A stretch of 64,000 bases of DNA from Atlantibacter subterraneus (GTDB lineage Bacteria > Pseudomonadota > Gammaproteobacteria > Enterobacterales > Enterobacteriaceae), in NCBI RefSeq assembly GCF_007570865.1, contig NZ_VLPS01000006.1, forward strand, positions 124,001-188,000, in the 5' to 3' direction. The notes beneath the pieces were generated by a model. The model was not told where the DNA came from. It ran no database searches and saw nothing but the letters and a program-made list of their open reading frames with translations. The position numbers were made by a program, and so were the translations under genes. Below, in pieces: positions 55,057-60,701 of this stretch. Positions within the stretch are counted from its first letter, which is position 1. Each line of letters begins with the position of its first letter.

Positions 55057-55070
55057 TTTCTGATTATTCA

Positions 55071-55098
55071 AACCATCCTCCGGGATGGTTTTTTTTTA
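55071..55098 (+). terminator. Terminator after rlmB
   Basis: AACCATCC (55071-55078) pairs with GGATGGTT (55083-55090), followed by a run of T. Confidence 0.9.
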
Positions 55099-55185: not shown

Positions 55186-55581
55186 ATGACATGGACAATC
55201 GTCGCGCTGGAGGCAGCACTTAAGCAGGATAACTATTGCAATTATTCTGTTTCTCACATACAAAACGCATTAAAACTGACATTGAAGCAACACGGCGATC
55301 TTGTTGTTCATATTTCAATGACATCAAAGCAAATTTTCATTGAAACGGTGATTTGCCCCGTTGAAAATATTCAGGATGTGAATAAATTAAATTATCGTTT
55401 ATTACGCATTCAGAAGTTATTACCTCTTTCCTCAGTCGGTATTTCTATTATCAATCACAAAGATTATTACCTGGCGTTTGGTGCGCTTTCGCTTGCGTCC
55501 TCCCTCGCTGATATTGTCCTTGAGATTGAAACGCTGGCTGAAAACGCGTTGGAACTCGCTGAAATTATTGCTGAATCATAA
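55186..55581 (+). CDS. yjfI: YjfI (DUF2170)
   Basis: 131-aa small cytoplasmic protein without signal peptide or membrane segments, of the DUF2170 family. Conserved stretches: CNYSVSHIQNALKLTLKQHGDLVV, ICPVENIQDVNKLNYRLLRIQKLLPLSSVGI and YYLAFGALSLASSLADIVLEIETL. GGGAGGA precedes the ATG. First gene of the yjf cluster; probably a partner of the PspA-like YjfJ. Function unknown. Confidence 0.9.
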   Translation: MTWTIVALEAALKQDNYCNYSVSHIQNALKLTLKQHGDLVVHISMTSKQIFIETVICPVENIQDVNKLNYRLLRIQKLLPLSSVGISIINHKDYYLAFGALSLASSLADIVLEIETLAENALELAEIIAES

Positions 55582-55619
55582 GACGAAAGGCATCGTCAAT
55601 CTATTTACGAGGGAATGCG

Positions 55620-56318
55620 ATGAGTATTTTAAAAAAATTATTCACTCTGGGGAGATCGTTAGTTAATGAGACCGAAACCCTGATAGAAGAAACCCAGGGC
55701 ATACGTCTACTTGAACAACACATTCGGGATGCGCGAGCCGAGCTTGATAAAGCCGGTGAATCACGCGTCGATCTGCTGGCGCGTGTTAAATTGAGCAGAG
55801 ACAAACTGCAGGAATTAAATGCGCGTAAAGCAACACTGGAATGCCGGGCCGTAGAAGCGATGCAAAAACAAGTCGATGAAAGCCTGTTGCTTGAGGTTGC
55901 TGAGGAAATCTCACGGCTTGAAACGGTAATCGCGTCAGAAGAAAGCGTGCTACATAATTTTGAGCATTCCCGGGATGCTATTGAAAAAGCCGTTGCGGCG
56001 ACCAGCCAGCGAATTGCCCAGTTTGAACATCAGCTTGAAGTCGTAAAAGCCACTGAAGCGATGCAACGCGCTCAACAAGTGGTAACAACCTCTACAGTAG
56101 GGGCAAGCAGCAGCGTAGCGACTGCAGCCGACTCGCTTAAACGCCTGCAGGCGCGGCAAACAGAGCGCCAGGCGAGACTGGAGGCAGCAGAATCGCTGGA
56201 GAAAATAGCCAACGGGTGCGACCTGGATGAAAAGTTATCGCAGGCAGGCGTTGGCGGCGTTAATAAAAGTAATGCGCAGGACGTTCTCGCTCGTCTTAAA
56301 AATCAGCGTAACGGCTAA
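55620..56318 (+). CDS. yjfJ: YjfJ, PspA/IM30-family protein
   Basis: 232-aa, almost wholly alpha-helical coiled-coil protein of the PspA/Vipp1 family, which assembles on stressed inner membranes. The N-terminus SILKKLFTLGRSLVNETETLIEE has the amphipathic helix, followed by long heptad-rich stretches (LEQHIRDARAELDKAGESRVDLLARVKLSRDKLQEL). Its stop overlaps the next start (TAATG). Likely the membrane-coating component of the yjf system. Confidence 0.93.
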   Translation: MSILKKLFTLGRSLVNETETLIEETQGIRLLEQHIRDARAELDKAGESRVDLLARVKLSRDKLQELNARKATLECRAVEAMQKQVDESLLLEVAEEISRLETVIASEESVLHNFEHSRDAIEKAVAATSQRIAQFEHQLEVVKATEAMQRAQQVVTTSTVGASSSVATAADSLKRLQARQTERQARLEAAESLEKIANGCDLDEKLSQAGVGGVNKSNAQDVLARLKNQRNG

Positions 56319-57394
56319 TGTTGCTTTCTCGCATCATTCAGCTTTGCCAGCTTCACCTGGCCAGATTAACCTGGCCGGGGTTACTGATTTTATTTTTGAC
56401 TCATTATTGCATTTGTTACATCGCGCTACGCTTAGCTGGTGAAGCGCATCTCACTGCGAAATTAGGTGATTTTATCTATTACTGCTCGGTAGTGGGCTCA
56501 ACATTAGGTTTTGGTGATCTCAGCCCGCAAAATCAGCCGGGACGCTGGTTTACGGGCCTCTGGCATATTCCAGTCAGCGTTGCATTATTTGGCGCATTAA
56601 TGGGAAAAATGATCTCGGTAGCTCAGCAAGCTTTAACAAAAGGAATTCGCGGTTTGTCCAACTTTAACCACCTTTCCGGTCACCTAATTATTGTTGGCTG
56701 GCGTGGACAGCAGACGGAAAAGATGATCAATTTGCTGCTTTACGATCAAAGCAAAACGTTTTCGCAAATACTGATCTGCGAGTCAGGGGCACAATTACAA
56801 CATCATCCAATGCAAGGGCATGCACAGGTCTTTTTCGCCAGCGTCAGTAACTTCAATGCCCCCGAGGAACAGCAACGTATCGGCCTGGCGAATTGCAATA
56901 GCGTTATCATTTTTGCGCAAAACGACGAGCAGACATTTACGGTTGCGCTGTCTATCGCGGGACAGGTTAGCGATTCCAGCCACATCGTGGCGTATCTAGA
57001 AGACGAGCGTTATGCCCGGTTGTTAGAACAGCATTGCCACCAAATTGAAGTTGTCCGTAATTTGTCCGCTGAGCAGTTATTACGTTCAGTACAGGATCCC
57101 GGTTCCTCACAATCTGTCGCGTCGATTATGAACCCCATGCTGGGAGACACGGGTTATGTGCTTGAGATCCCCCATCACGTCAACGAATTTTGCTACGGGG
57201 GGCTAATGCGGTATATGAAACAGCATCATGACGCCACTGTTCTGGGGATTAGCCATTGCAAAAATGGCCGGGGAATGGAATTGAATCCCATTGTTTCTAC
57301 CGTAATTCGCGGAGGTATGTGGTTGCACTTGATAGGCAATCAACGAATCACCGCAGATGAAGTGCAATGGCATACTATAGGGAAAGAATTATGA
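56318..57394 (+). CDS. Two-helix potassium channel with RCK/TrkA-N domain
   Basis: 358 aa. TM1 (about residues 20-38), a pore helix and the selectivity filter TLGFGD (T62-D67), close to canonical TVGYGD, then TM2 (about 78-98). From residue 121 (HLIIVGWRGQQTEK) a Rossmann RCK/TrkA-N-like domain with a second lobe follows; the Gly pattern GxxGxx is altered (GWRGQQ). This organisation is that of MthK/Kch-type K+ channels. E. coli K-12 has no such gene in its yjf cluster. It is overlapped at both ends (TAATG with yjfJ, ATGA with yjfK), so it is embedded in the operon. Confidence 0.9.
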   Translation: MLLSRIIQLCQLHLARLTWPGLLILFLTHYCICYIALRLAGEAHLTAKLGDFIYYCSVVGSTLGFGDLSPQNQPGRWFTGLWHIPVSVALFGALMGKMISVAQQALTKGIRGLSNFNHLSGHLIIVGWRGQQTEKMINLLLYDQSKTFSQILICESGAQLQHHPMQGHAQVFFASVSNFNAPEEQQRIGLANCNSVIIFAQNDEQTFTVALSIAGQVSDSSHIVAYLEDERYARLLEQHCHQIEVVRNLSAEQLLRSVQDPGSSQSVASIMNPMLGDTGYVLEIPHHVNEFCYGGLMRYMKQHHDATVLGISHCKNGRGMELNPIVSTVIRGGMWLHLIGNQRITADEVQWHTIGKEL

Positions 57395-58059
57395 CTTCAC
57401 TATTCAGCCGAGTACGTCATTTTTTTCACAATGACACTAGCTCTGCCTGTGAAAAAGGGCCACTTGGATTACACCTTCACGCAGGATTTGAAATCGATAC
57501 GGTTGATTTTCGTCTTTTAGGTAATAACTATCTTATTGAAATACCCGCTGAAGACTATACCATCGCGGCGACTGGCATAATTGATATGGGCGCTGGGTGT
57601 AATATTTATCGCTATTACACCTCCGGGGATGAATTTTTACAAATAAATACTACCGGGGGGATAGATGATTTATGTATCGAAGATATAAAATTTTTTATTT
57701 ATTCAGAAAGTGCAGGCATTTCTACACGCGAAGCCTGGCATAATTCCATTGATGCTAGAGCCATAGGAAAACCTGATTTAAACTGGAAAGGGAAAACATG
57801 GCGACGCGTATTTAATCCGCTTGAAAATAGAGAAGTAGAGCCGATTTATTTGCTGGAAAATGTTGAAAATAGCGACCGGGAAACGTGGGAGCTCAACAAC
57901 TTCTGCATGCTTTATCAACGAAATGTTAACGCCGATTGCTTTGAATATTTACTTATTTCAGGCGAAGAGACATTTAACGAACAACAGGAACCTGAATGGC
58001 TAATTTCCTGGTCATTAGGTGTAGATATATCACGCAGTGGACTGCAGGTCATAGGTTGA
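57391..58059 (+). CDS. yjfK: YjfK (DUF2491)
   Basis: 222-aa cytoplasmic protein of the DUF2491 family. Characteristic stretches: GPLGLHLHAGFEIDTVDFRLL, DMGAGCNIYRYYTSGDEFLQINTTGG and PEWLISWSLGVDI. The start at 57391 overlaps the channel stop as ATGA. Function unknown; always found in this cluster type. Confidence 0.92.
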   Translation: MTSLFSRVRHFFHNDTSSACEKGPLGLHLHAGFEIDTVDFRLLGNNYLIEIPAEDYTIAATGIIDMGAGCNIYRYYTSGDEFLQINTTGGIDDLCIEDIKFFIYSESAGISTREAWHNSIDARAIGKPDLNWKGKTWRRVFNPLENREVEPIYLLENVENSDRETWELNNFCMLYQRNVNADCFEYLLISGEETFNEQQEPEWLISWSLGVDISRSGLQVIG

Positions 58060-58063
58060 AACG

Positions 58064-58462
58064 ATGCAAGTATTTATAGGTTTATCAGCATTCTGTACAT
58101 ATTTTTTTACTGGCGTACCTATGGTCGCGATATTTTTATTTATCTACACCAGAATTACTCCGCATAACGAATGGCAATTAATTAAGAATGATAACCTTGC
58201 GGCGGCCCTGGCCTTTAGTGGCTCGATCCTTGGCTATATAATTCCGCTTTCCAGCGCAGCGATTAATGCAGTGAGCGTGCCGGATTATTTAATTTGGGGT
58301 GTGATTGCCCTCGTTGTACAACTCCTTGTTTACGGCAGCGTAAGATTGTATATGCCGAAGCTCAGCGAAAAGATCATTAATCGTAACCTTGCGGCAGGAT
58401 TATTTATGGGAACTTCGGCTTTAGCCGGCGGGATCTTTAATGCAGCATGCATGACCTGGTAG
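58064..58462 (+). CDS. yjfL: YjfL, membrane protein (DUF350)
   Basis: 132-aa protein with four hydrophobic helices in two related halves (FIGLSAFCTYFFTGVPMVAIFLFIY; ALVVQLLVYGSVRLYMP; and NRNLAAGLFMGTSALAGGIFNAACM), the DUF350 pattern. Conserved LAAALAFSGSILGYIIPLSSA. It starts 4 bp after yjfK. Function unknown; the membrane partner of the cluster. Confidence 0.92.
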   Translation: MQVFIGLSAFCTYFFTGVPMVAIFLFIYTRITPHNEWQLIKNDNLAAALAFSGSILGYIIPLSSAAINAVSVPDYLIWGVIALVVQLLVYGSVRLYMPKLSEKIINRNLAAGLFMGTSALAGGIFNAACMTW

Positions 58463-58471
58463 GATAATATT

Positions 58472-59068
58472 ATGAGCCGGAAAAAAAAGAACCAATCAGG
58501 AAGCTCAAGTCGGCCTAGTGACGCCGCCATGTTGACGCATTTGCCACAAAGAAAAAGCTCAAAGGTATTAAGGTTAGTATTCATGGGAGGTGTGGCGTTA
58601 ATTGCGCTTAACGGCTGCGACGAAGAGGATAAACCAGATGATGGGGTATTCTATTCATCGCCGCTTGAATGTATCAACGCCGGGAACTCTGCCCAGGTTT
58701 GCAATGACGCCTGGAACACTGCAAAAGAAAATTTCGCTAAAGAAGTTCCAACCAACCTGACGCGTGAAGCGTGTGAAAAATCATATGGCAACTGTTATCT
58801 GGATAATATAACGGGTAATTGGTCTCCAATAATGATGGGCTTTTTGCTGGCTTCAGCGCTTCAGCAAAACCGTGACAATTATTATGTTAGCAGCGGCGGC
58901 GGCTATATTTCACGTCCTGTCTGGTCTAACAACCATGGCGATTATACCTGGCGAACCGGCACCTCCAGGTCATCGGGTTCTGGCAAGGTTACATCAAAAA
59001 GCGCAGCCACCGTTTCACGTGGCGGCTTTGGTCATTCTTCCAGCGCACGCGGAAGTTGGGGAGGTTAA
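58472..59068 (+). CDS. yjfM: YjfM (DUF1190)
   Basis: 198 aa. A basic N-terminus (MSRKKKNQ) precedes a hydrophobic segment ending LIALNGC, which could be a lipobox-like or membrane anchor. The DUF1190 core follows: YSSPLECINAGNSAQVCNDAWNTAKENFAKE and TREACEKSYGNCYL with four conserved cysteines. A Gly/Ser-rich tail (SRGGFGHSSSARGSWGG) suggests a surface or envelope location and resembles a modification substrate. yjfC starts 2 bp later. Confidence 0.9.
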   Translation: MSRKKKNQSGSSSRPSDAAMLTHLPQRKSSKVLRLVFMGGVALIALNGCDEEDKPDDGVFYSSPLECINAGNSAQVCNDAWNTAKENFAKEVPTNLTREACEKSYGNCYLDNITGNWSPIMMGFLLASALQQNRDNYYVSSGGGYISRPVWSNNHGDYTWRTGTSRSSGSGKVTSKSAATVSRGGFGHSSSARGSWGG

Positions 59069-59069
59069 T

Positions 59070-60233
59070 ATGCTGCGTCATAATGTCCCTGTACGGCCAA
59101 ATTTAGATCGTATCGCTAAGGAACATGGTTTTAATTTCCACATTATCGATAACGAGATCTATTGGGATGAAAGCCGCGCATATCGATTCACATTGCGACA
59201 GATAGAAGAGCAGATCGAAAAGCCCACGGCCGAATTGCATCAGATGTGCCTTGAGGTTGTCGATCGGGCGTTAAAAAGCGAATCCGTCATGAAGCAGTTG
59301 GCTATTCCACCGCTTTACTGGGATGCAATAGCCGAAAGCTGGCGAAATAATGATCCTTCGTTATATGGGCGTATGGATTTTGTCTGGACGGGAAAAGGTC
59401 CGGTTAAATTACTGGAATACAATGCCGATACGCCGACTTCGCTATACGAGTCTGCCTATTTTCAATGGGTATGGATGGAGGATGCGCGTCAACAAGGCCT
59501 TATACCGCGTGGAGCCGATCAGTACAATGCTATTCAGGATAGGTTGATTGCGCGCCTTGGTGAACTGAACAACGGCGGACCGCTGTATTTATGTTGCTGT
59601 AAAGATACTGAAGAAGATCGAGGAACGGTTCTGTATCTTGAGGATTGTGCACAGCAGGCTGGGCTGCAAACGCGTTTTATCTATATCGAAGATATCGGAT
59701 TGGGCGTTGGCGGCAGCCTGACCGATTTACAAGACAATGTGATTCAGCAGGCTTTCAAACTCTATCCGCTGGAATGGATGATGCGTGATGAAAATGGTCC
59801 GCTGTTGTGTAAAAGACGTGAACAATGGATCGAGCCTTTATGGAAAAGCATCCTTAGTAATAAAGGGCTAATGCCGTTGTTATGGCGTTATTTTCCTGAG
59901 CATCCAAATCTGTTACCTGCCTGGTTTGATAATGAAAAGCCGTTAATTAAAGCGGGAGATAGCTACGTGAAAAAACCGCTTTTTTCGCGTGAAGGTGGAA
60001 ACATCACGATATATGACGGCCAGCAAAATGTAATAGATAGCGCGGAGGGAGATTACGCGGATGAACCGGTTATTTTTCAGGCATTTCAGCCGTTGCCGCG
60101 CTTCGGTGATAGCTACACACTTATCGGTAGCTGGGTTATTGATGACGAAGCGGTAGGTATGGGGATTCGTGAAGATAACACGCTCATTACCAAAGATACC
60201 TCTCGCTTTATACCTCATTACATTGCGGGTTAA
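59070..60233 (+). CDS. yjfC: YjfC, glutathionylspermidine-synthase-like ATP-grasp ligase
   Basis: 387-aa ATP-grasp enzyme of the glutathionylspermidine synthase C-terminal family, but without the amidase domain of Gss. Core stretches: LLEYNADTPTSLYESAYFQW (substrate loop), YVKKPLFSREGGNITIYDG (ATP-binding Lys and Gly-rich loop) and GSWVIDDEAVGMGIREDNTLITKDTSRFIPHYI at the C-terminus. ATG 59070 with GGGGAGG upstream; a longer frame back to 58872 is a shadow of yjfM. Likely a peptide/amide ligase acting on a cluster protein such as YjfM. Confidence 0.94.
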   Translation: MLRHNVPVRPNLDRIAKEHGFNFHIIDNEIYWDESRAYRFTLRQIEEQIEKPTAELHQMCLEVVDRALKSESVMKQLAIPPLYWDAIAESWRNNDPSLYGRMDFVWTGKGPVKLLEYNADTPTSLYESAYFQWVWMEDARQQGLIPRGADQYNAIQDRLIARLGELNNGGPLYLCCCKDTEEDRGTVLYLEDCAQQAGLQTRFIYIEDIGLGVGGSLTDLQDNVIQQAFKLYPLEWMMRDENGPLLCKRREQWIEPLWKSILSNKGLMPLLWRYFPEHPNLLPAWFDNEKPLIKAGDSYVKKPLFSREGGNITIYDGQQNVIDSAEGDYADEPVIFQAFQPLPRFGDSYTLIGSWVIDDEAVGMGIREDNTLITKDTSRFIPHYIAG

Positions 60234-60701
60234 GTGATTAATTGGAAAAACAGACGACTAAGAATTAATGCTATGTTTCGTGTAGTGATATTAATTATTT
60301 TCTCTGCTTTGTTTGTGCAACCTGTGTTCGCGGATAACGCGAGGCCTGAAACGGCAAAACATGTTAAGGGCTATATCGGCCTGGAGGGGGTTAAACTATG
60401 CACCTTACGTATCGGGCCAAGATCGGAAAATGAAGCTTTGCTGCAAATTTCAAACATCGATCATGAACTTGACATGAAGATATTGCGCTGCAAGGTTCAA
60501 CCCATCAGCGATGGCGGTAAAGGCTATTCGACTGAGATTGACGGGAAGCAGTTTATGGTGCTGAGGCTTAATAATGGTGTAGGCGAACTTTATCTGCCCG
60601 GTGAAACACCGATTTCAGTAGCATATAACGACGATCTGTCCCGCCAGGGGGATGCAGAATACTTTTTGACGGATTATCTTGAGCGGAAAGCAAAGAAATA
60701 G
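60234..60701 (+). CDS. Small exported protein of unknown function
   Basis: 155 aa from GTG 60234 (directly after the yjfC TAA) or 142 aa from ATG 60273. Residues 14-33 form a signal peptide ending PVFA-D. The mature part has two cysteines (KLCTLRIG and ILRCKV), likely a disulfide, and beta-rich sequence (KGYSTEIDGKQFMVLRLNNGVGELYLPGETPI). I recognise no family. It continues the yjf operon and is absent at this spot in E. coli K-12, which has aidB next. Probably a periplasmic addition to the cluster. Confidence 0.75.
   Translation: MINWKNRRLRINAMFRVVILIIFSALFVQPVFADNARPETAKHVKGYIGLEGVKLCTLRIGPRSENEALLQISNIDHELDMKILRCKVQPISDGGKGYSTEIDGKQFMVLRLNNGVGELYLPGETPISVAYNDDLSRQGDAEYFLTDYLERKAKK

Follow-up and report, generated by a model that had tools for sequence, protein, structure and literature searches.

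The closest described relatives of the system that we analyzed, the yjfI-yjfC operon of Atlantibacter subterraneus, are the third group of operons of Ravi et al. 2024 (PMC11237479). In the part of that paper that was available, these operons have a dyad of CesT/Tir-type (DUF2170) and PspA genes at the 5' end, and they also encode a GspS-like ATP-grasp enzyme, a K+ channel with intracellular ligand sensing, and DUF350, DUF1190, and DUF2491 proteins. The Atlantibacter operon, DUF2170-PspA-K+ channel-DUF2491-DUF350-DUF1190-ATP-grasp, lies on the + strand between rlmB and aidB, in a 64-kb stretch of DNA (positions 124001-188000 of contig G000:C12, "the window") from a genome of 4.6 Mb. Both the operon itself and its channel-bearing layout are already known (Ravi et al. 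2024). The available main text of that paper mentions DUF1190 once, as a metal-chelating lipoprotein; the C-terminal tail of the DUF1190 protein (YjfM), which is our main subject, is not mentioned there as a substrate of the ligase.

Other known systems resemble parts of the operon. The stand-alone ligases YjfC and YgiC are GSP_synth proteins of about 390 amino acids without the amidase half, as is the window's YjfC, which may have peptide-spermidine ligase activity. GspSA (PDB 2io7 and others) shares the preATP-grasp/ATP-grasp synthetase domain with YjfC, but it has a fused N-terminal amidase and is about 620-650 amino acids long. In eukaryotes, according to the available part of PMC12270671, the C-terminal carboxylate of SUMO or ubiquitin is joined to spermidine with ATP. 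This is what we propose for YjfM, but the eukaryotic system relies on E1/E2 enzymes and folded ubiquitin-like proteins (UBLs) with no homology to the bacterial module, and the comparison is an analogy only. Pup and the ubiquitin-like modifiers share just the Gly-Gly end with YjfM. Finally, the operon differs from the classical Psp system (pspABC-F) in that it lacks neighbors of the PspB, PspC, or PspF type: these families had no match among the nine open reading frames (ORFs) that were scanned, from yjfI to aidB.

We propose that the operon has at its core a module for ligating a polyamine to a protein tail and that the tail of YjfM is the ribosomally made substrate of YjfC. We think that this is probably correct. 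The substrate role of the tail is something that we infer, as are the attachment site, the amine, the order of events relative to export, and the purpose of the modification.

A conserved tail on DUF1190 proteins

The N-terminus of YjfM is basic and is followed by a stretch that, by eye, spans the membrane, then by a core, and finally by the C-terminal tail SRGGFGHSSSARGSWGG. Four cysteines in the core are invariant across 20 aligned sequences, and a cysteine-rich core suits the periplasm. In the AlphaFold model of YjfM, the core has a pLDDT of about 77-87 over residues 61-130. The two ends (residues 1-55 and 182-198) are unstructured, with the last 17 residues below 50.

DUF1190 proteins usually end with RGG[F/Y/W]G, then a variable Ser-rich stretch, and then Gly-Gly. 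We quantified this with 118 distinct DUF1190 proteins, which were retrieved by a model built without the final 60 residues (there were 119 hits, and one chance ORF was dropped). Nearly all of them (112/118) end with G[GS], while shuffled tails do so in 7.6 cases on average and in 17 at most (2000 shuffles). Similarly, RGG[FYWL] is found within the last 60 residues of 108/118 proteins (shuffled mean 1.7, maximum 7; 1000 shuffles). When the proteins are clustered at 50%, 38 of the 42 clusters end with G[GS], and glycine is at position -2 in 38 of them, versus a background of 15%; positions -3 to -11 are only 10-26% glycine.

The distance from the motif to the end ranges from 2 to 64 residues. 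The codons of the two terminal glycines vary freely (GGC/GGT/GGA/GGG are used in 60/30/8/2 and 49/27/15/9 of 100 cases). A fixed motif and a fixed end, with variable spacing and free choice of glycine codons, are what would be expected if the tail combined an element for recognition with an end whose chemistry is fixed.

The tail is found beside stand-alone ligases

YjfC has 387 amino acids and matches GSP_synth over residues 14-385 only, with no fused amidase half; the fused GspSA proteins that we fetched have 617-655. Residues 1-387 align with the solved structures of E. coli YjfC (7uk6/7uk7), and the alignment with YgiC (7uk8/7uka) is full-length as well.

We examined the neighbors of such ligases on chromosomes, on plasmids, and in viral sequences. 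Only the ATP-grasp was used to choose the loci on plasmids and in viral sequences. We applied a relaxed pattern for the tail to distinct enzymes whose flanks reached 1 kb or more on both sides, which excluded 47 enzymes. With this pattern, an ORF with the tail lies beside 184 of 199 stand-alone GspS-like ATP-grasps, from five bacterial phyla and phages. These include 100/113 on chromosomes, 21/21 on plasmids, and 63/65 in viral sequences. (Two over-long ORFs, L147 and L155, were counted as stand-alone, as we judged their extra length to be an early start call.) With the same pattern, the tail was beside 0 of 18 fused GspSA proteins. These are a natural control because they have the same catalytic domain, but the substrate of the family is glutathione. 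As another control, just 5 of 3596 opposite-strand ORFs carry the tail. Among the 249 ORFs in the window, only YjfM has it.

With a strict pattern and 1.4-kb windows, the tail was found beside 121/141 cellular and 42/62 viral stand-alone enzymes. The viral loci that we examined are the best 80 of 98 (77 of them with an intact ligase ORF, near-duplicates kept), and the IMG/VR contigs may include bacterial DNA. None of the 1282 opposite-strand ORFs at the viral loci matched the strict pattern. Among plasmids, we opened 21 of 163 records, spread over taxa, and identified a tailed neighbor in 20 of them by eye and in 21 by the relaxed pattern; the partner from a Sphingomonas plasmid lacks the terminal glycine. 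Such ligases are also encoded in 76 phage records, and the three that we opened all have the tail.

The co-occurrence of the ATP-grasp and the tailed protein is beyond chance. The first-pass annotation of the window had suggested that YjfM is conjugated by YjfC. As judged from these sequences, this is supported by the tail and by the way that it accompanies stand-alone ATP-grasps in several phyla and in phages, which give the suggestion much more weight than gene order alone did.

The tail is also found on proteins with no Pfam match to DUF1190, from Deinococcus (L157), Bacillus (L167), and Rossellomorea (L169), and one further partner is below the cutoff. A lipobox-like site is present in 137 of 205 distinct neighbors with the RGG motif, and several enterobacterial YjfM proteins lack the lipobox cysteine, so the label "lipoprotein" does not suit all of the tailed proteins. 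On an Arthrobacter plasmid, a gene that is annotated as tRNA-dihydrouridine synthase (L158:5196-5774) is the tailed partner of an ATP-grasp and ends with SRGGFGSGAKGGSVGG; the annotation is likely to be incorrect. The Atlantibacter genome contains a second pair, of the ygiB-ygiC type (G000:C13:162412-164112, locus L054), whose DUF1190 protein ends with SNRSMGG. Both yjfM-yjfC and ygiB-ygiC fit the tail rule.

The amine and the role of the tail

YgiC and YjfC from E. coli are reportedly peptide-spermidine ligases, going by the title of Pederick et al. 2023. They have been termed peptidylpolyamine synthetases (PMC12568646), and PMC12506659 cites Sui et al. 2012 for the lack of GspS activity in YgiC. 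Ravi et al. 2024 (PMC11237479) report variant operons that encode AdoMet decarboxylase and polyamine oxidase. In Achromobacter phage Motura (L200:1168-3993), a gene that is annotated as homospermidine synthase (with saccharopine-dehydrogenase-type domains) lies directly upstream of a tailed lipoprotein and an ATP-grasp, so that the three are in a row. The joining of spermidine to SUMO is a chemical precedent for such an amine. The reported activity, the variant operons, and the gene row in Motura favor a polyamine over the alternative that the ATP-grasp recognizes the tail but adds an amino acid, a peptide, another protein's amine, or a membrane amine, which would make this a tagging or tethering system. 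We consider a non-polyamine adduct to be unlikely. It would lead to the same coupling between the tail and the enzyme, and as a class, GspS-like enzymes ligate acids to amines; it would also fit with the rarity of polyamine-type genes beside the module. Five tails (L215, L228, L244, L259, and L339) end with GE, mostly as GGE, instead of GG, and might be a sub-type with another acceptor. The end of Pup resembles these GE ends.

We considered whether polyamine genes are regular neighbors of the ligases, and rejected this. We scanned 105 ORFs of about 235 amino acids or more, hand-picked from 361 non-redundant ORFs at viral and some chromosomal loci. The same scan identified Ion_trans_2 in 3 ORFs and Band_7 in 2. 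Separately, an SMR-type transporter gene lies directly before the tailed lipoprotein in Acinetobacter phage Acj9 (L201:1188-2082) and on an Acinetobacter plasmid (L166:3823-4924). SMR proteins can move polyamines.

Several observations weigh against our proposal, or against the counts that we base it on. Domains of the polyamine-synthesis type (saccharopine-dehydrogenase-type, homospermidine-synthase-like) were found in only 2 of the 105 scanned ORFs, one of which is the Motura gene. If the end is left unconditioned, the last residues of the 205 neighbors with the motif are G in 150, S in 36, A in 10, E in 5, T in 2, R in 1, and C in 1 (those with R and C are chance ORFs). Thus the last residue need not be glycine, but it is nearly always a tiny one. 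The tails of sphingomonads end with SIHA, and YjfM from Citrobacter sedlakii continues past Gly-Gly to end with SWGANHAAT. The motif is looser outside of the Pseudomonadota, Actinomycetota, and Deinococcota: RGG is missing from the partners in Geobacillus and Bacillus and from two cyanobacterial ones, which retain only [S]G[F/I/L/M]G and a Gly/Ser end. As to the counts, some of the chromosomal loci were chosen by the ligase and others by DUF1190, which biases this set for the test of coupling; the seeds for the DUF1190 model were picked by their tails; the relaxed pattern was fixed after we inspected the misses of the strict pattern; and related sequences in the counts are not independent. With the strict pattern, and with near-duplicates kept, the tail is found at just 52/77 viral loci with intact ligases. 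The Azospirillum plasmid locus has no convincing tail by eye, yet the relaxed pattern counted it. Finally, an exported substrate and an enzyme that is not exported need an ordering step.

Another alternative, which we consider to be somewhat less likely than a non-polyamine adduct, is that the low-complexity RGG/Ser tail is a docking or assembly element that unites the lipoprotein, DUF350, and the ATP-grasp, with a small free peptide or a metabolite as the actual substrate of the enzyme. RGGFG (168/205) is more constant than the final glycine, as might be expected for docking, but the set was selected by its RGG element. Docking would not need a tiny residue at the end, which is found in 196/205 despite the variable sequence that precedes it. 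Also, after export, the tailed protein and the enzyme would be on different sides of the membrane.

The operon and its optional members

The features of the operon are listed in Table 1. The first-pass annotation placed seven named genes in a tight operon, with spacing under 40 bp, and all seven are there: the spacings between consecutive genes are +38, -1, -4, +4, +9, and +1 bases. The domain matches are all above the Pfam cutoffs, except for the RCK domain (TrkA_N). Because of the hairpin beyond rlmB, the operon is set apart from this upstream gene. A second PspA gene is present elsewhere in the genome (G000:C7).

Table 1. Features of the yjfI-yjfC operon and its flanks (positions are within the window).
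Feature	Position	Strand	Evidence or remark
Terminator-like hairpin 3' of rlmB	55070..55091	+	9 pairs then T run (pattern match only)
yjfI, DUF2170 (CesT/Tir-like)	55186..55581	+	Pfam PF09938, E 5.1e-38
yjfJ, PspA/IM30 family	55620..56318	+	Pfam PF04012 (PspA_IM30), E 9.3e-45
Two-transmembrane K+ channel, RCK-like cytoplasmic domain, filter TLGFGD	56318..57394	+	Ion_trans_2 E 5.7e-10; MthK alignment
yjfK, DUF2491	57391..58059	+	Pfam PF10679, E 3.4e-52
yjfL, DUF350 membrane protein	58064..58462	+	Pfam PF03994, E 2.5e-35
yjfM, DUF1190	58472..59068	+	Pfam PF06693, E 3.8e-20, 73.2 bits vs. cutoff 22
YjfM tail (residues 182-198), SRGGFGHSSSARGSWGG; RGGFG is the putative recognition element and the terminal Gly the putative acceptor	59015..59065	+	
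yjfC, stand-alone GspS-like ATP-grasp ligase	59070..60233	+	Pfam PF03738 (GSP_synth), E 1.7e-147
155-amino-acid exported protein, adjacent bystander outside the system	60234..60701	+	Likelier start ATG 60273

DUF350 is the most common of the other neighbors that we tested, at 56 of 119 ligase loci. The tailed protein, DUF350, and the ligase look like the core, while PspA, DUF2170, DUF2491, and the channel look like an added stress layer.

The first-pass annotation described an embedded K+ channel with an RCK domain, absent from E. coli K-12. The channel gene is present, and its selectivity filter, between two transmembrane helices, is of the K+ type (TxGxGD), which is found in 29/29 homologous stretches that we read. 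The RCK domain is less clear. Pfam's TrkA_N scores 18 bits, compared to a cutoff of 23.8, but phmmer aligns residues 6-271 to the pore and RCK domain of MthK (E 1e-5).

The view of the channel as an unusual insertion is not supported: it is a known optional member that occupies the same slot in other genera. The channel gene is found in 13/5426 complete E. coli genomes; in the one channel-bearing strain that we opened (2013C-4282), it is in the identical slot, as it is in Citrobacter, Buttiauxella, Enterobacter ENT03, and Serratia microhaemolytica. On a Rhizobium plasmid, the channel is accompanied by the same partners. Because the slot and the partners are shared among these replicons, we rejected a recent insertion. 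A channel gene is also close to the ligase in Deinococcus and, in divergent orientation, in Rossellomorea. In the simplest history, the channel is an old optional component that was lost many times. The operon of E. coli E2348/69 has no channel, and by eye, its yjfJ-yjfK gap has no recognizable remnant of one. This gap (L009:4219-4275) is occupied by an inverted repeat, GCCAGCC...GGCTGGC.

Among 28 named YjfC loci, 9 have the channel, 9 have DUF2170-PspA-DUF2491 but not the channel (one with broken frames), 7 show nothing but yjfL-M-C within the stretch that was fetched, 2 are truncated at a contig end, and Providencia has only yjfL and yjfC. More broadly, an iterated model built from the window's channel identified it in 16 of 119 stand-alone ligase loci (2.5-kb flanks), so the linkage is real but patchy.

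Downstream of yjfC, the first-pass annotation had included a secreted protein of 155 amino acids in the operon. The ORF is present and its N-terminus looks like a signal sequence (by eye; its relatives begin at an internal Met), but it is not a conserved part of the operon. It has no Pfam or NCBIfam match at E 0.01 and no PDB match at E 10, and the AlphaFold model made from its sequence alone is of low quality (mean pLDDT 52.8). Within the genus, the window's genome has both the operon and this protein; G003 has the operon only; G002 and G004 have the protein with only remnants of the operon; and in G001, neither a window-type YjfC nor the protein was found. None of the 28 named YjfC loci has the gene; the stretch of one of them, L185, stops about 250 bases after yjfC. 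We therefore rejected it as a component of the operon: it is a bystander. Relatives are found in 17/246 genomes from the family, and the three flanks that we read outside of the genus hold other genes. Judging by eye, these three relatives (L354, L355, and L356), in other genera, lie between ORFs that resemble PTS permeases and TonB receptors, or beside an ORF that resembles asparagine synthetase. The protein belongs to an unnamed exported family.

The operon is undergoing loss within the genus. Two same-genus genomes have only scraps of yjfC between rlmB and aidB (L052:4082-4517 and L053:4155-4477, with yjfI as well in L053). In Atlantibacter RC6, yjfI (L040:7752-8140) matches as two pieces in different frames, which could be a frameshift or a sequencing error. 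The other genes of the RC6 operon match in single pieces, and the genome search reported one internal TAG in yjfC.

It is very unlikely that PspA, DUF350, the channel, and the 155-amino-acid protein, along with YjfC and YjfM, form one unit that responds to the membrane potential: the single tight operon, the gene order with the channel that is kept in other genera, and the raised expression of yjfIJKL in heat-evolved E. coli (in the available part of PMC12492005) would fit this, but it conflicts with the loci that have yjfL-M-C alone or that lack only the channel, and with the uncoupled distribution of the 155-amino-acid gene.

A proposed mechanism and its implications

If the tail of YjfM is the substrate, then YjfC would recognize the flexible tail through the RGGFG element and would use ATP to activate the carboxylate of the C-terminal glycine. 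The activated carboxylate would be joined to an amine, most likely spermidine, in the way that GspS uses the glycine of glutathione. By eye, YjfC has no visible export signal, and the core of YjfM is cysteine-rich and behind a membrane anchor, which suggests that the tail is capped before or during export. The product would be a membrane-anchored protein of the envelope with a polycationic end. DUF350 would be the most frequent membrane partner of the module, and DUF2170-PspA, DUF2491, and the K+ channel would be an accessory layer for envelope stress that is often missing.

A broader version of the proposal is more tentative, and we would not bet on it at even odds: bacteria of five or more phyla, as well as many phages, may have a dedicated protein-polyaminylation system, in which each stand-alone GspS-like ligase caps the Gly, Ser, or Ala at the end of its own membrane lipoprotein with an RGGFG-type tail, yielding a tethered polycation in the envelope. 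This would be a prokaryotic counterpart of the conjugation of UBLs to spermidine, and in enterobacteria, PspA and a ligand-gated K+ channel would have been combined with it.

Among the matches listed in our literature searches (titles, hit counts, and the starts of abstracts), no open paper described the tail signature, its absence beside GspSA, or its spread across phyla and phages, though Pederick 2023 and Iyer 2009 may hold part of this. In papers on graspetides, jumbo phages, and CDC123, the terms spermidine and glutathionylspermidine/YgiC were absent where we searched for them. In the accessible literature, the natural substrate of YgiC or YjfC is named nowhere, and DUF1190 proteins (YgiB and YjfM) have no established function. 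A signature that pairs the ligase with DUF1190 across phyla and phages merges these two questions into one. If our proposal is correct, then this would be a widespread and largely unrecognized type of protein modification in bacteria. The tail signature lets annotators find the partner proteins of these ligases, including genes that are mis-annotated or hypothetical.

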